Assembly: GCF_001187905.1 (NCBI RefSeq)
Contig: NZ_LGIS01000027.1
Span: forward strand, 1 to 64,000
Length of the DNA: 64,000 bases
DNA from: Pantoea sp. RIT-PI-b
GTDB lineage: Bacteria; Pseudomonadota; Gammaproteobacteria; Enterobacterales; Enterobacteriaceae
Direction of reading: 5' to 3'
Below are positions 15,082 through 55,168 of this stretch, piece by piece. A program made the translations under genes and the position numbers. The notes beneath the pieces are model-generated. The model did not search any database and had not been told where the DNA came from. It saw only the letters and a program-made list of their open reading frames with translations. Each line of letters starts with the position of its first letter. Within the stretch, counting starts at the first letter, position 1.

Positions 15082-15266
15082 GGAGATCTCCGAGATGCCG
15101 CCGCAGGCTGTAACCCTTGAACCCTTGGTTCAAGGTGAACATGCCGTCACAACTATTAGGCTTCTCGGACGGACCGAGCATGCGCACAAATTGTGGAGCG
15201 TCACATTCTGTTGGTATGAAATATCGGCTCAGGGGACTGGCCCGCTTGCAAACATCTCAGAGAAAA
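15082..15266 (-). ncRNA. ssrS: 6S RNA
   Basis: About 185 nt on the minus strand, reading from ATTTTCTCTGAGATGTTTGC to ...GGCATCTCGGAGATCTCC. The complementary 5' and 3' ends (TCTCTGAGATG with CATCTCGGAGA) form the closing stem. The internal CCAGTCCCCTGAGCCGATAT and the TTGAACCAAGGGTTCAAGGG hairpin are those of E. coli 6S RNA. 6S RNA mimics an open promoter and sequesters sigma70 RNA polymerase in stationary phase. It lies downstream of zapA and upstream of fau, as in enterics. Confidence 0.95.
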
Positions 15267-32938: not shown

Positions 32939-35683
32939 TCAGAAACTCACATCCACGCCGCCGCGCAGCACTTTCTCGTCACCGCGATCGGCGAAGTGCT
33001 GATCGGCACGCAAGAACAGCCGCGCGCGCGCCGCTTGCACCACGTCCAACCGTACGCCTAACCACTGCGAACGGCGATCGAGCTGCATGCCGGGAATCTG
33101 GAAGCTATTCTGTTCAGCGCCAAAACCGCTCCAGCGCGCGCTGACATCCATTGACGGATTGTTCAGCGCGTACTGATATTCGCCATACAGACTCAACATG
33201 CTCCACCAATTCGCCGACCAATCCTGTCGTGCGCTGAGATTTAAGCCGCTGTAACCGACGCGGCGATGATAGCTATCGCCGTCGCCGCTCAAGCCGAACG
33301 CGCTGCCTTTATCGGTAAACGCGCCGGTTTCCAGCCCGGTTTCGCGCCAGCCGAGATACGGTTCCAGGCGATAGTTATCCGCAATCATCCAGCGATAGCC
33401 GCTTTGCAGCGCCGCCTGCCAGCTGTTGCTGCTGGTGGTGGAGGAGACCGGTGCGGCCTCATCCAGCAGCACCAAACGTTTTAACTCATCGCGGCCGTGT
33501 TGGTAGCTAAGATTGCCCTGCAGATACCATGCCGGCGTCAGGTCGTAACGCCCATACAGCACGGCGCCCTGCAGGCGGTTGCGGCTGGTGCCGCCGGTTT
33601 GATCGTATGTTGAATCGATCTGATTCTGCGTCCAGGCCACACCCACGCGCAGACCGGAAATGCCCAAATCACTGTCCACGCCTAAGGCCGTCAAAGTATT
33701 GCGATAATCGCTGCCGAGATAGCCATCCTGATTGAGCGAACCGCGTAGTTGGCCGCTCTCCAGCCAGAATCCGTAACGCTTATCGGCGCTGGCATCGGCG
33801 ATGCGGTTGCTCAGCAGACGCGTTTGATAATCCAGCGCATTAAACAGCGCCGCGTTGCTGGAGGCGTGCGCCTGGCCGGAAAGCGAATTGATAGCAGATT
33901 GCGCGCTGCTGGGATCGGCCAGCGTCTGGAATGCACCAGCGGCACCCAGCGCACTCTGCTGTGAGCGGCTGAGCGAACCCTGTTGCTGCCAGTTATCCGC
34001 CACGCTGAATGCCTGCTCCAGATTGGCCGCCGTTTGCTGCGTGCTGGCAGCGCTTAAGCCGAGTGCCGCCGCAGTAGCAGCGGTATTTTTGCGAGTAAGC
34101 TGGCCGCTAACGCTAGTGGCGTTATAGCTGACGGAACCCTCAAGGAATACGCCGGTGTTCACCTGGCTGAACTGCCCGCTGACGCCCGCATCGCTGGTCA
34201 GCAGCGTCTCCTGCTGTTTCACCACATAGGCCGATGAGGGCGGCGCAAGATTCAGCGTGCCGTCCAGCGTCGAGTGGCCTGCGATGCGCAGCGGGCTATC
34301 CAGCGCGATATTCAGCGCGCCGTTGCTGCCTTGCTGATAATCGCCTTGTACCTGTAAGCCGCCGTTAACCGAGCCCTGATTCAGCAGGCTGCCGCCAATC
34401 ACGCCGCTGCCGCCCAGGGTGCCGCTGCCGCTGACGCTGGCACTTCCGGCGATAGCCCCCGCGATCAGCAAGGTGTTGGCCGCGACGCGCGTCTGGCCGA
34501 GATAGCTGTTATTCGCAGTTAACTGCAGTACGCCGCCACGCTCTGTGCCGTCCAGCACTAATCCATGGTCGCCGCTAATCGCATTGGCAAACTGATAACG
34601 ACCGCCATCGAGGCTGGCATGAAAATCATCGGCCCAGAACATCGCCGGACCGTTCAGCGCTTTGGCCTGGTTTAGATCGCCCCAGCCGAAGGTGTCGTTG
34701 TAAGGTCGCCCGTTGGCGCTATCCGCCACGTTCGCGTAAGCATCGCTGCGGTAACTGGCGGTGGTCAGCAGGGTTTGCTGCAGGTTGTAGCCGCTCATCC
34801 ACGGAAAGCGCTGTAACACCTGCGAGGCCGCCGCTGCGGCACGTGGTGCAGCAAACGAGGTGCCGTAGCTACGCACGTTTGACCCGCTGCCATCGGCATT
34901 TTGAAAGCGATAATCGGTATAACCGGGCGCACTCAGACACCAGGCCGCAGCATTGCCGCAGGCATCAAACGGGCCGGTTAATGGAGCGCGATTTGCCGTG
35001 TCATAGGAAGTGCTGTCCATCACGCCGGTGACGGCCAGCATGTTTTTTTGCAGCGTACTCTCCTGATAAATCAGCGGTAGCTGGGCATTAGGGGAAGGGG
35101 TTGAGGTACCACCGTTGCCGGTGATCACTACCGCCAGACCGTCAGCGGCGGCAATAGCGCGCAGGCTTTGCACCAGCACCTGATAGCGCGGCTGTGCATC
35201 AGTTAACGCCTGCGCCGTGGTCAGGCGCTCGGTTGAGGCAAACGACATATTGAAAACGCGCACGCCCTGACTCAGCAGGCCGTTAACCGCGCGCTCGGTG
35301 TCATCATAGTTAAACAGATTATTCTGCGATCCCTGAGCCACATACAGCGCGCTGCTGGATGACAAACCCAGCAGCGTCAGCGCCACAACTGTGCCGTGGC
35401 CGTTGATGCCCTGATTATCATTTAAGCCGGAGCCACCGCCGACATAGCTGGCGAAATGCACGTTGGCGTAGTTGATTTCGTTGCGATCCGGCGACAATCC
35501 TGAATCAATAATGCCCACTTTGCTGGCATTAGCCGCGCTGCTGGGCTGTTCCGGCGGTTTAGGCGTGCCGGTGGTGGGTGAGGGGGCCGAACTACTGCCG
35601 CCTCCACCGCCGCCACAGGCGGCGAGTAACAAGGGAATTAACAAGGCAAGTAAGCGTGGTGAAGTGCGCAAACCGGTATACAT
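32939..35683 (-). CDS. Subtilisin-like autotransporter lipoprotein
   Basis: 914 aa, predicted type V secreted serine protease. The N-terminus is a lipoprotein signal (LLALLIPLLLAAC, lipid Cys23) followed by a Gly/Ser/Pro linker. The S8 peptidase domain (about 55-330) has the triad Asp60 (GIIDSGL), His96 (NGHGTVV) and Ser276 (GTSFAAP). A passenger with autotransporter-type repeats (NSYLGQTRVAANTLLIAGAIAGSASVSGSGTLGG) precedes a C-terminal beta-barrel of about 280 residues ending in Phe (GGVDVSF). ATG 35683 follows AAGGAG; an adjacent upstream TTG in frame is less likely. The layout is that of NalP/SphB1-type surface-anchored maturation proteases. It is inserted between recJ and prfB. Substrates are unknown. 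Confidence 0.88.
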   Translation of the reverse strand: MYTGLRTSPRLLALLIPLLLAACGGGGGGSSSAPSPTTGTPKPPEQPSSAANASKVGIIDSGLSPDRNEINYANVHFASYVGGGSGLNDNQGINGHGTVVALTLLGLSSSSALYVAQGSQNNLFNYDDTERAVNGLLSQGVRVFNMSFASTERLTTAQALTDAQPRYQVLVQSLRAIAAADGLAVVITGNGGTSTPSPNAQLPLIYQESTLQKNMLAVTGVMDSTSYDTANRAPLTGPFDACGNAAAWCLSAPGYTDYRFQNADGSGSNVRSYGTSFAAPRAAAAASQVLQRFPWMSGYNLQQTLLTTASYRSDAYANVADSANGRPYNDTFGWGDLNQAKALNGPAMFWADDFHASLDGGRYQFANAISGDHGLVLDGTERGGVLQLTANNSYLGQTRVAANTLLIAGAIAGSASVSGSGTLGGSGVIGGSLLNQGSVNGGLQVQGDYQQGSNGALNIALDSPLRIAGHSTLDGTLNLAPPSSAYVVKQQETLLTSDAGVSGQFSQVNTGVFLEGSVSYNATSVSGQLTRKNTAATAAALGLSAASTQQTAANLEQAFSVADNWQQQGSLSRSQQSALGAAGAFQTLADPSSAQSAINSLSGQAHASSNAALFNALDYQTRLLSNRIADASADKRYGFWLESGQLRGSLNQDGYLGSDYRNTLTALGVDSDLGISGLRVGVAWTQNQIDSTYDQTGGTSRNRLQGAVLYGRYDLTPAWYLQGNLSYQHGRDELKRLVLLDEAAPVSSTTSSNSWQAALQSGYRWMIADNYRLEPYLGWRETGLETGAFTDKGSAFGLSGDGDSYHRRVGYSGLNLSARQDWSANWWSMLSLYGEYQYALNNPSMDVSARWSGFGAEQNSFQIPGMQLDRRSQWLGVRLDVVQAARARLFLRADQHFADRGDEKVLRGGVDVSF

Positions 35684-36235
35684 CAATGCTCCTTCATGTC
35701 TCTCAGGACATGTCGTGCCCGCTCACGTTAACGGGCGCTGATTACGGTGTCGTTCCTTGTCGGGGCGGCGCGTTCCTGGCGGGCGTGGTGACAAACGATC
35801 GGGACGGTAGTGATGTTGGATAGGGGATAGTCACTGAGCAAAATGATAAAGGCGGACGCATAAATTGATGGTCGAAGTATCAGCTGCTTAATGGCGTTAT
35901 TTGAGACGCTTCTGCTTTATTGCAGGAAATTTCTCACGCAGTATTTTTGATGAAATTGTCTTAAAAATCATGATCTTTAATGAATGCATTCGGCATTAAC
36001 TATCCGGGATTTATACGAAATTTCTTAAGCGATGTCTGAAGCTGTTGGGCCAGCGGAGGATTTTTGGAAAGGGTCGCGCGGGGAGCTTTCCAGAAGTTGG
36101 CGAACTTTTTTTCTTTTCGCTGACAGATACCCTCGTCAGCCGCGTGCAATGCTACAAAGTACGCACACTTTCGGGTAAACTAGCGCGTTAGTTTTTATCT
36201 CCTTTCACCGAATCGTCAAAAAAGACTGAAAAGCC
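35684..36235. promoter_or_regulatory. Divergent intergenic region, autotransporter / prfB
   Basis: 552 bp without a convincing gene. It contains a GCCCG-N10-CGGGC hairpin at about 35717-35736 in the autotransporter leader, an AT-rich block at about 35900-36030, and TAAACT at 36175-36180 as a possible prfB -10 box. I see no operator I can name. Confidence 0.4.
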
Positions 36236-39137: not shown

Positions 39138-39989
39138 ATGAGTGCAAAAGCGGCAACGTTAGAGGGCCGGATTCGTCAGCACTGGGATCAACTCTCCAGC
39201 CATGAACAGCGCTTAGCCGATGTGCTTCTTGCCGCACCTGGCCAGTTAGCCATGAACACCGCCACCGAACTGGCGCACAGCGCCGGCGTCTCGAAAGCTA
39301 CCACCACGCGTTTCTTCCGCCATCTTGGCTATGAAAGCTATGAAGCCGCACGTCGCCAGGCGCGTGAGATGCAGAGCAGCGGTTCGCCGCTCTACCTGCA
39401 ACCGGCGCCCAGCGCATCACCGCTGGCCAGCATCATGCAGCAGCACCTGGAAAAAGAGATCGCCAACCTGGTCAACAGCTATCGCACGCTGGATAGCGAA
39501 CAGCTGCAGCAAGCGGTTACCGCCATCAGCGCGGCGCGGCGCGTGGTGGTGATGGGCTGGCGCCACAGCCAAACCATCGCCCATTTGATCTACCGCGACC
39601 TGATCCATATTCATTCCGATGTCCGTCTGCTGCCGCGTCCCGGCGATTCGCTGGCGGAGCATATGGCGGCGCTGACGGCGGAAGATGTGGTGATTTGCGT
39701 CGGTCTGCGGCGACGCATGCCGGCGCTGGAAGCGGCAATGAACGCGCTGGCCGAGCGCAATGTCCCGATGCTGTATATCGCCGATGTGCTCTCCGGCAAA
39801 CCGGTGCGTCACGCGCAATGGGTGATCCGCTGCCACACCGACAGCAGCCTGATCTTCGACAGCACCGCCGCGCTCTCTGGCGTGTGCAATCTGCTCTGTT
39901 CATTGGTGGCCCGACAAATGGGTAAAGCCAGCAACGATCATCTCGCGCAAATTGAAGCGCTGCACCAATCCCTCGACGAGCTTGAATAG
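39138..39989 (+). CDS. MurR/RpiR-family transcriptional regulator
   Basis: 283 aa. N-terminal helix-turn-helix of the RpiR type (TELAHSAGVSKATTTRFFRHLGY, about residues 36-58) and a SIS sugar/ligand-binding domain (about 115-255, RVVVMGWRHSQTIAHLIYRDL and later segments). ATG 39138 follows CAGGGA; the open frame upstream runs into the repeat element and is not real. It lies 262 bp upstream of the binding-protein/DUF1989 operon on the same strand, so it is the likely local regulator. The SIS domain would bind a phosphorylated sugar in most relatives; here the effector is unknown. Confidence 0.85.
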   Translation: MSAKAATLEGRIRQHWDQLSSHEQRLADVLLAAPGQLAMNTATELAHSAGVSKATTTRFFRHLGYESYEAARRQAREMQSSGSPLYLQPAPSASPLASIMQQHLEKEIANLVNSYRTLDSEQLQQAVTAISAARRVVVMGWRHSQTIAHLIYRDLIHIHSDVRLLPRPGDSLAEHMAALTAEDVVICVGLRRRMPALEAAMNALAERNVPMLYIADVLSGKPVRHAQWVIRCHTDSSLIFDSTAALSGVCNLLCSLVARQMGKASNDHLAQIEALHQSLDELE

Positions 39990-40017
39990 TGCGCCGTGCT
40001 GGCGCATTTTGCGCCAG
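39990..40017. promoter_or_regulatory. Overlapping dyads: possible NtrC site or weak terminator
   Basis: TGCGCCGTGCTGGCGCA (39990-40006) is a perfect dyad whose TGCRCC-N5-GGYGCA form resembles NtrC sites. The overlapping CTGGCGC-ATTTT-GCGCCAG (39999-40017) is a hairpin without a T run that could end the regulator transcript. The NtrC reading gains some weight from the sigma54-like promoter about 190 bp downstream. Confidence 0.3.
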
Positions 40018-40116
40018 AAGTCGCCCCAAAACAGTGCAATCCTGCCAACTCTCTCTCCAGCAATAGCCGCCGTCCCGCTCGTCAGTGAAACCTAAGAAAT
40101 TAAAAATAAAAACGAA

Positions 40117-40130
40117 GAAACAATTGTTTC
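40117..40130. promoter_or_regulatory. Palindromic operator candidate
   Basis: GAAACAATTGTTTC, a perfect 14-bp palindrome in AT-rich DNA, 64 bp upstream of the sigma54-like promoter. It is the best candidate for the RpiR-type regulator's operator. Confidence 0.45.
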
Positions 40131-40193
40131 CAGTTGATTTTATTCACTAAACATTGACCTGGCGTTATGCACTCTGCGTAGTGGTGAAAAAAC

Positions 40194-40209
40194 TGGCACA
40201 AAACATGCT
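40194..40209 (+). promoter_or_regulatory. Sigma54 (RpoN)-type promoter
   Basis: TGGCACAAAACATGCT has GG and GC at the exact -24/-12 spacing of the consensus TGGCACG-N4-TTGCW and differs at only two of its defined positions (A for G at position 7 and A for T at position 12). It is 43 bp before the start of the binding-protein gene. It implies control by RpoN with an enhancer protein such as NtrC. Confidence 0.65.
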
Positions 40210-40251
40210 CAGTAGAAAAAGACATTTCACCAACACCAGGGAAACACCATA

Positions 40252-41088
40252 ATGAAAAAAACAGCACTGCTGATCGCCGCACTTCTTTCCGTTGGCACCA
40301 TGGCGCAGGCGCAAGCCGATACGCTGGCCGACATCAAAAGCAGCGGCAAAATCACCGTCGGTATCGATCCAACCTTTCCTCCCTATGAATACACCGATGA
40401 CAAAGGTGAGATCACCGGCTACAGCGTGGCGATCATGCAATCCTTTGCAAAAGATCTCGGTGTGAAACTGGAGTTTCAGAAAACCGCCTTCAGCGGCATT
40501 TTGCCGGGGCTGATCTCTGGCTCGTTCAACGCCGAAGGTTCCTCCCTTAACGTCACTGCTGAACGCGCGAAGAAAGTGCTGTTCACCGTGCCGTACAGCA
40601 AAACCGTTAACGGCGTGCTGGTGCGTGAAGACGCAGCCAAAGCGTTCAGTGGCAAAACCCTCAGCCCGGAAAGCTTGTCAGGCCTGCGCGGTGCGGTGAA
40701 AACCGCCAGCGTGCCGGAGCAGTTGCTGAAAGGCTTTAACGAGCAGCTGAAGAAAGAGGGCAAAAAACCGATCACCATTATTAACGTTGATTCGCTGGAT
40801 CAAACCGTCAGCACGCTGATGACCAAACGCGCCGATTTCGTCTATGACGACATCTCAGTACTGGCACCAGTAGCGAAAAAATACGCCGGTAAAGTGGCGC
40901 AGGTGGGCGAAGTCGGCCCGTCGCAGTGGATGGGTTGGGCGACGCGTAAAGAAGATGGCAGCCTGAACCAGGCGATTAGCGCGCATATCCTGGCGATGCA
41001 GAAAGATGGCGAGCTGACAAAACTGCAGCAGCAGTATCTCGGCACCACCTTCACCGTACCCGCCAGCGACTTCATTCCGCAGGAGTAA
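40252..41088 (+). CDS. ABC transporter periplasmic binding protein, amino-acid type
   Basis: 278 aa, SBP_bac_3 family. A Sec signal peptide (MKKTALLIAALLSVGTMAQAQA, cut about residue 22) is followed by the two-lobe fold with GKITVGIDPTFPPYEYTDDKGEITGYSVAIM near 31-61 and YDDISVLAPVAKKYAG near 200. First gene of a six-gene operon with two permeases and three DUF1989 proteins. Such proteins bind amino acids or small nitrogen compounds. The promoter type and the DUF1989 partners suggest a nitrogenous ligand, identity unknown. Confidence 0.85.
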   Translation: MKKTALLIAALLSVGTMAQAQADTLADIKSSGKITVGIDPTFPPYEYTDDKGEITGYSVAIMQSFAKDLGVKLEFQKTAFSGILPGLISGSFNAEGSSLNVTAERAKKVLFTVPYSKTVNGVLVREDAAKAFSGKTLSPESLSGLRGAVKTASVPEQLLKGFNEQLKKEGKKPITIINVDSLDQTVSTLMTKRADFVYDDISVLAPVAKKYAGKVAQVGEVGPSQWMGWATRKEDGSLNQAISAHILAMQKDGELTKLQQQYLGTTFTVPASDFIPQE

Positions 41089-41090
41089 TT

Positions 41091-41723
41091 ATGTGCCAGT
41101 CCAACCTGACGGTGCCCGCCGGCTTTGGCAAAACCTTCCGCGTGCGTAAAGGCCAGTTCATTACCGTGATTGATAGTGAAGGGCAGCAGGCGGCCGATTT
41201 TGTCGCGGTAAACGCCGACGATCTCAACGAGAAGCTGTCGCCGGTCCATACGCGCCAGCAGCTGCGTTCGCTGTTCTTTAAACCCGGCGATGCGCTGTGG
41301 TCGAGTGAAAACCGCCCGATGCTGCGCATTCTTGCCGACAGCATCGGCATTCACGATGCCAACGTACCGGCGTGCGATCGCACCCGTTTTAGCGTCGATT
41401 TCGGCGTAGAAGGGCATCGCAACTGCGTTGATAACCTGTTGGAGGGGATGAAGGCATTTGGCGTGACCTACTTCTCGCTGCCGGAACCGTTCAACCTGTT
41501 CCAGAACGGCCCGGTCACCGCCGATGGCCGCATGGAAGTCACCGATCCCAACAGCGTCGCGGGCGATAGCATCACCTTTGAAGCGCTGTGCGACCTGATC
41601 TGCTCGGTGTCATCCTGCCCGCAGGACATCATTCCCGGCAACGGCCTGCAGGTGACGCCAATTGACATCGTGGTCAGCGACCATTTTCACGCTCAGGAGA
41701 TGAATCATGCTGTTAATGCGTGA
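41091..41723 (+). CDS. DUF1989 protein (carboxyguanidine-deiminase-like), first copy
   Basis: 210 aa, starting 3 bp after the binding-protein gene with AGGAG before the ATG. DUF1989 proteins were long annotated as urea-carboxylase-associated; characterised members CgdA and CgdB form a carboxyguanidine deiminase. Probable metal ligands are conserved: Cys95 (PACDRTRF), HRNC at 109-112 and Cys176 (SSCPQD). No urea/guanidine carboxylase or allophanate hydrolase is in the window, so the substrate may differ. The 3' end overlaps the next DUF1989 gene by 17 bases, suggesting a heteromeric pair. Confidence 0.8.
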   Translation: MCQSNLTVPAGFGKTFRVRKGQFITVIDSEGQQAADFVAVNADDLNEKLSPVHTRQQLRSLFFKPGDALWSSENRPMLRILADSIGIHDANVPACDRTRFSVDFGVEGHRNCVDNLLEGMKAFGVTYFSLPEPFNLFQNGPVTADGRMEVTDPNSVAGDSITFEALCDLICSVSSCPQDIIPGNGLQVTPIDIVVSDHFHAQEMNHAVNA

Positions 41724-42354
41724 AAGTTATGAAGAAACCGCCGTGCGCACGCTGGCTGAACCGGTGCAGGTTGCGGCGGGCAGCGTGGGTTCGATTCGCG
41801 TGCTGCGCGGTCAGCTACTGCGCATCACCGCGCTGGGCGAAGGTGCCGTTGCGTCGCTGTTTGGCTTTAGCCTTGTCGATTCCGCCGTATGGTTGTCGGT
41901 GCACCATACGCGGGTGTTCAGCAACAGTTATCTGCTCGGTTCCGGTATGCGTCTGGTGAATAACCGTCGCCGTCCAATGATGGTGCTGGGCAAAGACAGC
42001 GTAAAGCGTCACGACCTGCTGCTACCGGCATCTACCACCGCGTTTCTCGCCGAGCGCGGTTATCAGGGCGAAGGTTGCGTTGAGGGTGTGCGCGGCGAGC
42101 TGGCGCGTCTTGGTCGGGTGGTGCCGAAGCTGCCGGATCCGATCAACTTGTTTATGCACGTCAAGCTCACGCGCGAGGGCGATATTCTGCCGGAAACCAA
42201 TCTGACCAAAGCCGACGACAGCATTACCTGTCGCGTGGTGATGGATACGGAATTCATCGTCTCCGCCTGCAACACCGGCATTGAGGGTAACGATAAACCC
42301 GCGCCGCTGCTGCTGTCGGTGGCGGAAAACTTGCACGACTTTAACGCGGAGTAA
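41707..42354 (+). CDS. DUF1989-like protein, divergent second copy
   Basis: 215 aa. ATG 41707 follows AGGAG and lies inside the end of the preceding gene. The overall DUF1989 pattern can be followed (PDPINLFMHVKLTREGDI near 143-160, then DDSITCRVVMDTEFIVSACNTG). The HRNC ligand motif is missing (GCVEGVRGE in its place) and CPQD has become CNTG at 188-191. It may therefore be a non-catalytic or structural partner of the first copy. Family membership is by alignment by eye to its neighbours, so moderately sure. Confidence 0.65.
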   Translation: MLLMRESYEETAVRTLAEPVQVAAGSVGSIRVLRGQLLRITALGEGAVASLFGFSLVDSAVWLSVHHTRVFSNSYLLGSGMRLVNNRRRPMMVLGKDSVKRHDLLLPASTTAFLAERGYQGEGCVEGVRGELARLGRVVPKLPDPINLFMHVKLTREGDILPETNLTKADDSITCRVVMDTEFIVSACNTGIEGNDKPAPLLLSVAENLHDFNAE

Positions 42355-42357
42355 CGC

Positions 42358-43008
42358 ATGGGGCTGGATCAACAGGTGGTGGCCGCGCTGCCGGAACTCG
42401 GACGCGGACTGCTAATGACGCTGATGCTGACCGTGCTGGCGTCGTTAGTCAGCGTGGTAATGGGGCAGCTCGGCTGCTACCTGCAGCTGCGCCGAGCCTG
42501 GATCTGGCGCGCCATCGGCCGCGGCTACGTCAGTGTGATGCGCGGCACGCCAGCGATCGTGCAGCTGTTTGTGGTGTTTTTCACGCTGCCACGGCTGGGA
42601 TTGGGTGGGCAGCCGATGCTGGCGGCGGTGATTGCCATTGGCCTCAATAGCGGCGCATACGTGGCGGAAATCCTGCGCGTTAATCGCAGCCTGGTGACGC
42701 GCGGCCAGCTTGAAGCCGCGCGCACGCTGGGGTTGAGCCGTTTTCTCAGCTGGTGGTATGTGATTAATCCCCAGGTGATGCGCGCCAGCCTGCCGATGCT
42801 GGTCAATGAATTCACCATTCTGCTGAAAACCACGCCGCTGGCCTCGGTGGTGGCGCTGACCGAACTGACCTATGCCGGACAGATCGTCATCGCCCGCACC
42901 TACGAAGCCACCCAGGTGTTGCTGCTGGTGGCGGCGGGTTACCTGCTCATCGCCATGCCGTTGATTGCGGCGGCGCGACGTCTGGAAGCGAAACGGAGGA
43001 TGGCGTAA
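42358..43008 (+). CDS. ABC transporter permease, polar amino-acid type
   Basis: 216 aa, HisM/GlnP family, with about five hydrophobic helices. It has the family segment VMRGTPAIVQLFVVFF near residue 59 and the EAA loop GQLEAARTLGLSR near 117. It starts 3 bp after the second DUF1989 gene and its stop overlaps the next permease start (TAATG). It partners the 43008 permease as a heterodimer. Confidence 0.88.
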   Translation: MGLDQQVVAALPELGRGLLMTLMLTVLASLVSVVMGQLGCYLQLRRAWIWRAIGRGYVSVMRGTPAIVQLFVVFFTLPRLGLGGQPMLAAVIAIGLNSGAYVAEILRVNRSLVTRGQLEAARTLGLSRFLSWWYVINPQVMRASLPMLVNEFTILLKTTPLASVVALTELTYAGQIVIARTYEATQVLLLVAAGYLLIAMPLIAAARRLEAKRRMA

Positions 43009-43673
43009 TGGATTGGCAGGCAATTACCACCTCGTTGCCGTCGCTGGCTGACGGCCTGGTCGCTACCTTGCAGCTCTGTCTGGTGGCGGCGCTCTGTTCG
43101 CTGCTGTGGGGCGCGCTGCTGGCCGTACTGCTGATGCGCGCCTCGCCGTTCTGGCTGCGTTTGCTCAATCTTTACAGCGGTTTAACCCTCGCGCTGCCGC
43201 TGCTGGTGGTGATCTATCTGCTCTATTTTGTGCTGCCGGAATATGACATCACGCTGTCGTCGCCGGTGGTGGGCGTGCTGGCGCTAACGCTCTACTACGC
43301 GCCCTATATCGCGCAGGTGATCCGCTCGGCCATTGATGCGCTGCCGAAAGGGCAGTGGGAAGCGTGCCGCGTGCTCGGCTTAAGCCGTAGCGAACAGCTG
43401 CGCGATGTGGTGCTGCCGCAAACCCTGCCGCAGATGTTATCGCCGCTGGTGGGGCTGATGATCGGTTTGATTAAAGACTCGGCGCTGCTGTCGATTGTCT
43501 CGGTGCAGGAGTTTATGTACGCCGCCAAACAGGCGATTTCGGATACCTACGCGCCGCTGGAGATCTATCTCACCGTGGCGCTCTGTTACTGGCTGCTCAA
43601 CAGCGCGATCGACTGGCTGGCGCGCGGCCTTGAATCTCGCATGACGCGCTACCGTCGCGCCATGCAGCACTAA
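43008..43673 (+). CDS. ABC transporter permease, polar amino-acid type (second)
   Basis: 221 aa, same family as the preceding gene, with the EAA loop GQWEACRVLGLSRSEQLRDVVLPQ near residue 119 and about five membrane helices. No ATP-binding subunit follows; no Walker motif is present in any gene of the operon. An ATPase encoded elsewhere, perhaps shared with another importer, must be assumed. Confidence 0.88.
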   Translation: MDWQAITTSLPSLADGLVATLQLCLVAALCSLLWGALLAVLLMRASPFWLRLLNLYSGLTLALPLLVVIYLLYFVLPEYDITLSSPVVGVLALTLYYAPYIAQVIRSAIDALPKGQWEACRVLGLSRSEQLRDVVLPQTLPQMLSPLVGLMIGLIKDSALLSIVSVQEFMYAAKQAISDTYAPLEIYLTVALCYWLLNSAIDWLARGLESRMTRYRRAMQH

Positions 43674-43686
43674 TGTGGAGAACAAC

Positions 43687-44358
43687 ATGTCAGCGGAATT
43701 TCAGCATCGTGAAGTGATAACTATTCCGGCGCGCTTTGGTAAAGCGGTGCGACTGAAGAAGGGGGAAGCGGTACAGGTGATTAACCTGCACGGCACCCAG
43801 GTGGTGGATTGCTGGGCGTATAACGCTGAGGATGTGAGTGAATATATGTGTATGGAGGCGACGCGGGTGTGGAATCAGCGTCTCAATCCGAAAGTGGGCG
43901 ACAGCTTTATTACCAGCCAGCGCCACCCGATTTTGACGCTGGTGGCGGATACCTCGCCGGGCGTGCACGACACCTTTATGGCCGCCTGCGATGCGCGGCG
44001 TTATGAGTTGCTGGGTTGCACTGAACCGCATCGCAACTGCCATGACAACCTGTTTGAAGGCATGAGCGAGCTGGGCGTGACGCTGCCGCACGGCAATCTG
44101 GCATCGTTTAATATTTTTATGAATATTCAGGTGCAGCCGGACGGCATCACGCTGAAGACGCTGCCGGTGGTGACTAAGCCGGGCGACTATATTGTGCTGC
44201 GCGCCGAGATGGATTGTTTGGTGGCGTTCTCAGCCTGCCCGCAGGATATCGTCAGCATTCAGGGGCAGGGCGACAACACGCCGCGCGATGCTGAACTGCG
44301 CATTTTGACCGATGGCTTCCCGCAGGTGCAGCTGCAGGGCGCGTGGGTTCCGGCTTGA
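43687..44358 (+). CDS. DUF1989 protein, third copy
   Basis: 223 aa from ATG 43687 (GTGGAGAAC upstream; a GTG at 43675 would add four residues). It has all the ligand residues of the family: Cys101 (AACDARRY), HRNC at 115-118, and Cys184 (SACPQD), and VHDTF at 93-97, as in characterised carboxyguanidine deiminase subunits. It is closer to the first copy than to the second. Last gene of the operon; composite element copy 2 follows 8 bp later. Confidence 0.8.
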   Translation: MSAEFQHREVITIPARFGKAVRLKKGEAVQVINLHGTQVVDCWAYNAEDVSEYMCMEATRVWNQRLNPKVGDSFITSQRHPILTLVADTSPGVHDTFMAACDARRYELLGCTEPHRNCHDNLFEGMSELGVTLPHGNLASFNIFMNIQVQPDGITLKTLPVVTKPGDYIVLRAEMDCLVAFSACPQDIVSIQGQGDNTPRDAELRILTDGFPQVQLQGAWVPA

Positions 44359-44549: not shown

Positions 44550-45176
44550 CTACGACTTCACCACCCCATCCAGCCACGCCTGGAACCGCGCATACGGCAC
44601 ATACAGCGCCACATTCTTAAACAGCGTCTTACCGCTCTTATTGTCATCAATCTGGCTGCTATAACCGACAATCACTCCCGCCAGCGTATCGTCGCTGGCG
44701 TTATACACCGCACCGCCGGACATGCCTTTCACCACGCCAGCATTAGCCGCTACCACCACACAGCTGGCCTTATTCCAGTCATTCGCCAGCGTGGTATTGA
44801 TCAGATTCTTACCGCTCGATGCCACCGGCATCGCCGAAATAAAGCTGTAGCCATATAAATTCACGTTGTCGCCAATATGACTATTACGAAATGGCGGCGG
44901 CAGATTGGCTTCACTGTTCTTGTGGTACACCACCGCAATATCACACTCAGGATGCCAGGCTTTCACCCGATACAGCGAATACTTCGCCACGTGCGCCGCC
45001 GTCAGGCTGTATTCGGGCGTGAGAGGAATGGTGGTGCCGAGTGCGCCAATGCCCAGCACCGTGGGAATGCCGGTCACGGTCATATCAACGCGTTTTGCTG
45101 CTTCTTTACTGTATTCGTAGTGCCCAACAGAGCAGCCACTCAGGCAGCCAACCGTTAGCGCGATGAGCCATCGCAT
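44550..45176 (-). CDS. Trypsin-like (S1) serine protease lipoprotein
   Basis: 208 aa. A lipoprotein signal (MRWLIALTVGCLSGC, lipid Cys15) is followed by a compact trypsin-like domain with the triad His62 (LTAAHVA), Asp79 (ECDIAVV) and Ser153 (GMSGGAV). There is no PDZ domain, so it is not DegP-like. ATG 45176 follows GGGGAGAG; a 15-residue upstream extension would spoil the signal peptide. Expected to be membrane-anchored and periplasm-facing. Substrate unknown. Confidence 0.78.
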   Translation of the reverse strand: MRWLIALTVGCLSGCSVGHYEYSKEAAKRVDMTVTGIPTVLGIGALGTTIPLTPEYSLTAAHVAKYSLYRVKAWHPECDIAVVYHKNSEANLPPPFRNSHIGDNVNLYGYSFISAMPVASSGKNLINTTLANDWNKASCVVVAANAGVVKGMSGGAVYNASDDTLAGVIVGYSSQIDDNKSGKTLFKNVALYVPYARFQAWLDGVVKS

Positions 45177-45539
45177 ACGCTCTCCCCTCGATTTTTGACA
45201 CCGCATAACCGGGCAATCCATTGAGGTATCGGCAGTGCTCGTCCATCCTTTACTGATTGATTTAGCGTCAAAAGCCGTGCTGCTGTGACAGCGATCACAA
45301 CCTGCTTCAAGCGTAGCGCGGAAACATCAATCTGTCTCAATGGTTCGCTGCCGTCATTTTCCCACGCTGCGATTATTGCTGCAGGCGCAACATAGCCTTG
45401 CGGCGCGCGGGGTGGTTGCGGTGAAAAGGCTATGCTTTAATAACAATGTGACGCAGTTCAAATTTTAATAAGCGTCCGTTGTAACCGCACTGCGTTCGCC
45501 GTGCGGCCTGCCTGCAAAAAATATTTGGGAGAGTGTGTT
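45177..45539. other. Divergent intergenic region, S1 protease / MFS exporter
   Basis: 363 bp between divergent genes. I see AT-rich promoter-like sequence near 45435-45470 (GCTATGCTTTAATAAC) but no operator, RNA or gene that I can support. Confidence 0.3.
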
Positions 45540-53073: not shown

Positions 53074-53150
53074 CCCAGAGGTATTGATGGGTGAACATCA
53101 AAAAGTTTTCTTGATTACACCGACCTGCGCAGATGCGCAGGTTTTTTTTT
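53074..53150 (+). ncRNA. omrB: OmrA/OmrB-type small RNA, upstream copy
   Basis: About 77 nt. The 5' end CCCAGAGGTATTGATGGGTG is the conserved pairing region of OmrA/OmrB. TACAGT at 53062-53067 is a suitable -10 box, seven bases before +1. The 3' end ATTACACCGACCTGCGC-AGAT-GCGCAGGT plus nine T is the OmrB-like terminator. In E. coli these Hfq sRNAs are induced by OmpR and repress outer-membrane and curli genes, and lie next to galR. The middle part is variable, so A versus B naming rests on the 3' half. Confidence 0.9.
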
Positions 53151-55079: not shown

Positions 55080-55168
55080 CCCAGAGGTATTGATGGGTGT
55101 GAAAACAACGCTGCCGTGCAGCACCCCTGTTATTACACCAACCCACGCAGATGCGTGGGTTTTTTTTG
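55080..55168 (+). ncRNA. omrA: OmrA/OmrB-type small RNA, downstream copy
   Basis: About 89 nt. The 5' end is identical to the upstream copy over 20 bases, TATGGT at 55071-55076 is the -10 box, and the 3' end is TTATTACACCAACCCACGC-AGAT-GCGTGGGT followed by T8. The terminator stem differs from that of the other copy by compensatory changes, so it is a functional paralogue and not a recent duplicate. The internal GAAAACAACGCTGCCGTGCAGC region is specific to this copy. Confidence 0.88.

Follow-up and report, generated by a model that had tools for sequence, protein, structure and literature searches.

The 64,000-nucleotide stretch of Pantoea sp. RIT-PI-b analyzed here (contig NZ_LGIS01000027.1, positions 1 to 64,000; hereafter the window) carries, at positions 39138 to 44358, an RpiR-type regulator gene followed by what is best seen as an ATP-binding cassette (ABC) operon for uptake and degradation, centered on the protein family DUF1989, its novelty lying in a set of three DUF1989 proteins. 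In the literature searched, as far as the available excerpts extend, such a set with a transporter is apparently undescribed. We favor, with modest confidence, a role of this operon in importing and hydrolyzing a carboxylic acid that bears a ureido or guanidino group, under nitrogen starvation, and the anatomy of the operon supports the view that it probably serves nitrogen scavenging. Gene content, conservation, the DUF1989 clades, loss of the metal ligands in one subunit, a promoter element, and linkage to allantoicase in some relatives are established by sequence.

The regulator gene (39138 to 39989, + strand) encodes an RpiR/MurR-type protein of 283 amino acids when read from its ATG, within a frame open from 38943, with HTH_6 and SIS domains both over the cutoff. 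It is followed on the same strand by genes for a periplasmic SBP_bac_3 binding protein of the PAAT type (40252 to 41088), the DUF1989 proteins D1 (41091 to 41723) and D2 (41707 to 42354, overlapping D1 by 17 bases), permeases A (42358 to 43008) and B (43008 to 43673), and a third DUF1989 protein, D3 (43687 to 44358, with an alternative GTG start at 43675). Both permeases match BPD_transp_1 in Pfam and HEQRo_perm_3TM, so that a PAAT importer's binding protein (family 3) and pair of permeases are all encoded here. DUF1989 (PF09347; cutoff, 27 bits) is the sole Pfam match in D1, D2, and D3 (210 to 227 amino acids), which score 169.5, 101.1, and 154.4 bits, respectively, and the genome has no DUF1989 match outside these three. 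A previous reading made from the sequence alone (the sequence-only reading) had placed all of these genes and named their families correctly, and it had rightly seen that the operon includes neither an ATPase gene nor a carboxylase gene. It had also allowed that the protein at 41707 might turn out to be unrelated to DUF1989; the PF09347 score of D2 makes it a member.

In two DUF1989 trees, of 146 rows and of 78 rows under a mixture model, D1, D2, and D3 each form one clade apart from the two clades of the carboxyguanidine deiminase (Cgd) subunits, with supports of 100/99, 100/100, and 100/99 in the 78-row tree. Approximately unbiased (AU) tests rejected both the grouping of D2 with the ligand-less Cgd subunit, Cgd_lo (p-AU 0.0005), and that of D1 with the ligand-bearing one, Cgd_hi (p-AU 0.001), where Cgd rows were assigned by score, an adjacent carboxylase being visible only for the pair of genome G146 (L051) and the other loci having too little flank. 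The two ligand-less subunits, D2 and that of Cgd, thus appear in these trees to be likely of independent origin, and likely rather than certain because the trees contain long branches, D2 among them.

The metal ligands of these proteins can be read against those of the DUF1989-bearing trimethylamine N-oxide (TMAO) demethylase, which the excerpted source gives as C263, C279, C343, H276, D198, and D346, the last three being proposals made there or earlier (PMC12560246). Equivalents of all six are present in 66/67 D1 rows (an extra copy, L099_10206, departs from this) and in 56/60 D3 rows, the other four having Glu at D346; the three rows designated D3x keep all six, and the three designated D3y have Glu at D346. 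A Caballeronia locus has a fourth DUF1989-like gene near its trio (L099:10206), with altered ligand positions. D2 has kept neither the D198 nor the C263 equivalent in any of its 66 rows. The sequence-only reading described D2 as devoid of the HRNC and CPQD motifs; the motifs are indeed absent, but their cysteines are often kept (in 49 and 53 of the 66 rows), the consistent loss being that of the D198 and C263 equivalents. Ligand-bearing Cgd rows lack H276 and D346 in every case (30/30). Five pairwise comparisons with the window gave ratios of nonsynonymous to synonymous substitution rates (dN/dS) of 0.075 to 0.113 for D2, 0.025 to 0.070 for D1, and 0.032 to 0.060 for D3, none of the six operon genes exceeding 0.113 in any pair. 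By these ratios, D2 is clearly under purifying selection, slightly looser than that on D1 and D3. Loss of ligands with the fold kept lends plausibility to the earlier suggestion of a complex of catalytic and noncatalytic subunits, in which a metal-binding D1 may be partnered by a non-metal-binding D2; the complex itself is a prediction. This active/inactive pairing has a precedent, because CgdAB is described, in the excerpted source, with an inactive partner (PMC11271267).

The three-DUF1989 gene set is old and conserved. A family sample of 246 genomes, the genome of the window included, contained 48 genomes with a DUF1989 match, and gene coordinates revealed the trio layout in four of them (G000, G240, G196, and G068). 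Contigs of named genomes were also searched with five aligned D2 sequences, a scan that relied on two peptide patterns and may therefore have missed distant relatives; it yielded 64 loci from Pantoea, Erwinia, Kosakonia, Mangrovibacter, Rahnella, Rouxiella, Winslowiella, Vibrio, Pseudomonas, Burkholderiales, Alphaproteobacteria, and a few unplaced assemblies. The D1 and D2 genes are adjacent in all 64 loci, and a third DUF1989 gene belongs to the cluster in 61, the three loci without it (L105, L106, and L113) all lying at a contig end; at L114 it is about 3 kb off, on the opposite strand. An rpiR gene is found in or near the cluster in 57 of the 64 loci, on either strand. No additional enzyme was found to accompany the Enterobacterales operons consistently; the shared neighbors are flanking genes, e.g., those that by eye encode release factor 2 and lysyl-tRNA synthetase. 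The trio of Vibrio xiamenensis (L087) is nested among Enterobacterales copies in both DUF1989 trees, which suggests horizontal transfer. Two D2 proteins that are 93% and 88% identical to that of the window (L065 and L070) fall among the Pantoea ones; their contigs are labeled Enterobacter ludwigii and E. cancerogenus, labels that may be wrong. Genome G028 has DUF1989 matches with internal stop codons (G028:C1:3396549-3397781), apparently decayed.

Absence of the transporter ATPase characterizes a single lineage and not the system as a whole, because the gene is missing from the operon in 31 of 31 loci from Enterobacterales, Vibrio, and Pseudomonas (L063 to L093), where D3 directly follows the permease, and accompanies the transporter genes in 28 of the remaining 33. 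On a Palleronia plasmid, the same gene set has an ATPase gene between the second permease and D3. Four of the five ATPase-less loci among the 33 stop at a contig end (L106, L113, L122, and L126), and the fifth (L114) is a stretch without transporter genes; in three of the 28 (L112, L117, and L119), the transporter genes belong to an arginase-type operon immediately upstream. Excluded from the operon counts are ATPase-like genes near the trio at two of the 31 loci, one downstream on the opposite strand (L075) and one upstream of rpiR with its own binding protein and permease (L086). The absence of the ATPase, which the sequence-only reading had taken as a defining feature, therefore does not define the system, since relatives outside that lineage encode one beside their permeases.

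The region upstream of the binding-protein gene bears signals pointing to nitrogen control. A sigma-54 (-24/-12) promoter-like element, TGGCACAAAACATGCT (40194 to 40209, + strand), lies 58 bp from the start of this gene. Scored against a sigma-54 consensus with a threshold of at least 9 of 12, and with 7 of 65 rows left out because they offered no usable binding-protein start (L097, L112 to L114, L117, L119, and L122), the element is present in 28/28 Enterobacterales/Vibrio rows (window included), 4/4 Pseudomonas rows, and 16/17 Burkholderiales rows. All but two of the Enterobacterales/Vibrio rows (26/28) have it 53 to 58 bases before the start; the outliers, L073 and L078, may reflect start codon choice. 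A palindrome, GAAACAATTGTTTC (40117 to 40130, no strand assigned), is the likeliest place for RpiR to bind as its operator. In the form GAAACANNTGTTTC it begins 77 bases upstream of the sigma-54 element, is matched at 11 to 12 of 12 positions in all 28 Enterobacterales/Vibrio rows and at 11 or more in 3/4 Pseudomonas and 15/17 Burkholderiales rows, and at the latter level is unique in the window. A tentative NtrC-like site (40022 to 40038, no strand assigned) has 8 of 10 consensus bases, as does a second candidate farther upstream; sites with 9 or 10 of 10 occur in 14/17 Burkholderiales, 7/28 Enterobacterales/Vibrio, and 0/4 Pseudomonas rows. Because the rows are related, none of these upstream counts represents independent events, and the weight is carried by the span from Pantoea to Burkholderiales. 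Scans for sigma-70 promoters and terminators yielded nothing above chance. Control by sigma-54 and NtrC would be unsurprising for a ureide operon, because NtrC, acting with sigma-54, controls the urea, allantoin, and allantoicase genes of Burkholderia cenocepacia, according to the excerpted source (PMC5491218).

Clues to the substrate come from linked enzymes and from the transporter. The partner enzymes of D3 relatives belong to families acting on ureido, amidino, or amide compounds. Some D3 relatives share ABC operons with M20 enzymes of the hydantoinase/carbamoylase class (L040 and L039 are over the TIGR01879 cutoff), an M20 carbamoylase-type enzyme even being fused to DUF1989 in a 687-residue protein (L039:7937-10000, - strand), or with arginase-family enzymes. 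Others adjoin an amidase and a polysaccharide-deacetylase-like gene, in some cases together with a gene for a cytosine permease or for a PucR regulator. Arginase-family genes also stand beside the trio or the D1-D2 pair at L112, L117, and L113. M20 carbamoylase-type genes were found in all 18 trio genomes scanned, a nondiscriminating presence because none adjoins the trio of the window. An allantoicase gene directly follows D3 in 10/18 Burkholderiales and 2/4 Pseudomonas loci (12/64 overall); those of L095 and L091 pass the TIGR02961 cutoff, and the remaining operon-linked copies cluster with these two. In a tree of 26 allantoicases, which covers part of the known copies and leaves out the duplicates L150 and L160, Pseudomonas operon copies group with Pseudomonas and Burkholderiales copies with Burkholderiales, the two operon groups being joined in 0 of 200 bootstraps; because they are separate, allantoicase has become part of the operon on at least two occasions. 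In the binding protein, Arg105 is retained in 61/61 rows and Asp200 in 57/61 (three Ser and one gap), which we take to be the carboxylate- and ammonium-binding positions of amino acid binders, and the M20- and arginase-type binding proteins have Ser at position 200 in all 11 compared. Retention of both residues suggests that the transporter ligand is amino acid-like and carries a carboxylate.

These observations can be assembled into a mechanism. A sigma-54 promoter, probably activated by NtrC, would drive the genes from the binding protein through D1, D2, and both permeases to D3, and RpiR would repress at GAAACANNTGTTTC. The amino acid-type ABC importer would, in the lineage of the window, depend on a borrowed ATPase. 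D1 would act as a zinc enzyme partnered by D2, a DUF1989 subunit devoid of a metal site and retained by selection, and D3 would be a second zinc enzyme catalyzing the next step. The chemistry would consist in removal of amidino or ureido nitrogen, as CgdAB does on carboxyguanidine, with NH3 or urea passing into metabolism; urea could enter the Urt/urea carboxylase/allophanate hydrolase route of this genome. In some Burkholderiales and Pseudomonas, allantoicase would process a ureide intermediate. A ureido or guanidino acid is a reasonable expectation for the substrate, the balance tilting slightly in its favor, and a deiminase-type reaction, suggested by analogy, is possible but rather doubtful. 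The fuller proposal of a hitherto undescribed pathway in which DUF1989 enzymes break down a ureide or guanidino amino acid, with a pair independent of CgdA/CgdB and an importer with a borrowed ATPase, is tentative, somewhat short of probable.

Several points weigh against this nitrogen-scavenging reading. The sigma-54 element reaches the threshold in only 2/9 alphaproteobacterial rows and the palindrome 11/12 in none of them. Six sigma-54 matches in the 64 kb, both strands considered and that of the operon included, are equally good or better; because score alone is not rare at this length, the evidence for the element is its conserved position. Shuffled upstream sequences reach the sigma-54 threshold in 2 to 7% of cases, and the shuffles were single base and blind to relatedness of the loci. 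The NtrC-like sites of the window itself are weak at 8/10. Allantoicase is absent from 8/18 Burkholderiales loci (L105 and L106 of which end too early) and from 2/4 Pseudomonas loci, and neither allantoicase nor ureidoglycolate lyase (AllA) was matched in the genome of the window or in 14 other Enterobacterales/Vibrio trio genomes scanned, so linkage to allantoicase may be an addition confined to certain lineages. The sequence-only reading had proposed a search for orphan HisP-type ATPases elsewhere in the genome. Of 192 candidates, 150 were scored, and none of the best 18 of 154 reported matches is an orphan, all adjoining permease or binding-protein genes (partners recognized by phmmer or, for L174, by eye from the open reading frame list). 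We infer ATPase sharing and nothing firmer because the inspected ATPases all have adjacent transporter genes of their own. Substrate, reaction, D1-D2 complex, zinc binding, and the pairing of regulator and site likewise are inferred.

The best-surviving alternative, which we judge unlikely, is a hemiaminal-type lyase: D3, the D1-D2 pair, or both would split ureidoglycolate-like carbinolamides into glyoxylate and urea, replacing AllA behind allantoicase. A survey of 39 genomes found AllA within about 220 bases of 23/23 other allantoicases and beside 0/11 operon-linked copies, as expected of replacement, and the excerpted source ascribes to the DUF1989-bearing TMAO demethylase a C-N cleavage that releases an aldehyde (PMC12560246). 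However, each of the 10 scanned genomes whose operon includes allantoicase also encodes AllA at another site, which makes its replacement unnecessary, and the M20- and arginase-linked relatives fit hydrolysis better. Demethylation of some N-methyl or N-oxide compound, in the manner of the TMAO demethylase, is improbable: D1 matches the demethylase DUF1989 domain at an E value of 3.9e-25 with identical ligands, and that enzyme also has, in the same excerpted source, a DUF1989-like domain without the cysteines (PMC12560246), but D1 to D3 have no GcvT domain and the neighbors of their relatives are ureide or amidine hydrolases.

A divergent guanidine route with D1-D2 in place of CgdAB is more improbable still. 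The shared inactive partner, whose pattern also appears in the Cgd rows of our ligand alignment, would favor it, but the AU tests speak against both groupings, and D1 to D3 fall under the TIGR03424 and TIGR03425 equivalog cutoffs (best scores, 126.8 versus 284.7 and 76.4 versus 205.95). The sole full-length TIGR02712 match in the genome, a carboxylase outside the operon (1970 bits), adjoins UrtA and an allophanate hydrolase, both over their cutoffs, and has Asn706 versus Asp705 in the Cgd-linked carboxylase of L051, a single comparison in which both residues were taken, without exact mapping, as model position 701. The residue at that position separates the two carboxylase types, as stated in the excerpted source (PMC11410670), and the enzyme looks urea type from its sequence. 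No guanidine riboswitch was found in the window at the Rfam gathering score, and genome G196 holds both the trio and a Cgd-like pair. We therefore rejected membership in the CgdAB pathway on the sub-cutoff scores, separate clades, and urea-type carboxylase. The sequence-only reading, which had set the operon apart from CgdAB, is sustained on this point, and the carboxylase it asked about as a part of a standard guanidine pathway turned out to be this apparently urea-type enzyme. Decay of the operon, with the ATPase lost and the remainder drifting, is scarcely credible, because, for all that the ATPase is absent from 31/31 operons of the lineage and one transporter gene is broken into two frames, through either decay or an error of sequencing, in 3/31 (permease B in L072, the binding protein in L073, and permease A in L086), dN/dS stays low for all six genes and the promoter parts are conserved.

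The preferred reading of nitrogen-dependent ureide or guanidino acid uptake matters because DUF1989 is widespread and has two activities attached to it in the excerpts of the literature searched. A trio with a transporter and nitrogen control signals leaves a small set of candidate substrates. If true, active/inactive DUF1989 subunit pairs would have evolved more than once, and the operon exemplifies an ABC importer that lacks its ATPase gene across a lineage while the rest is undecayed. The window has further features, among them a pair of OmrA/B-type small RNA genes separated by about 2 kb (53074 to 53149 and 55080 to 55167) and a 6S RNA gene (15083 to 15266, - strand). An open frame of 915 residues (32939 to 35686, - strand) resembles a subtilase-type autotransporter by eye, and a 223-residue protein with a GMSGGAV motif (44550 to 45221, - strand), protease-like by eye, has no Pfam or NCBIfam match at an E value of 0.001.

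To conclude, the operon resembles several known systems and coincides with none of them. Like D1 and D2, CgdA and CgdB share the DUF1989 fold and adjacent genes, one with most of the metal ligand set and one without it, but the trio operon has D3 and its own transporter in addition, and no guanidine-type carboxylase was found. The TMAO demethylase Tdm, a DUF1989-GcvT protein, matches D1 and D3 at the six ligand positions, whereas D1 to D3 are single-domain proteins without GcvT in a transport operon. Among ABC operons that encode an M20 carbamoylase-type or arginase-family enzyme and a lone DUF1989 protein, most have a PAAT-type transporter beside that protein, which is of the same wider clade as D3; they differ in having one DUF1989, their own ATPase, and Ser at binding-protein position 200 (11 compared). 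The allantoin/allantoate pathway pairs allantoicase with AllA, whereas the operon-linked allantoicases of the trio loci have no AllA adjacent in the genomes surveyed. Finally, PAAT ABC importers have an alike binding protein and both permeases, the operon of the window's lineage being set apart by its missing ATPase gene.

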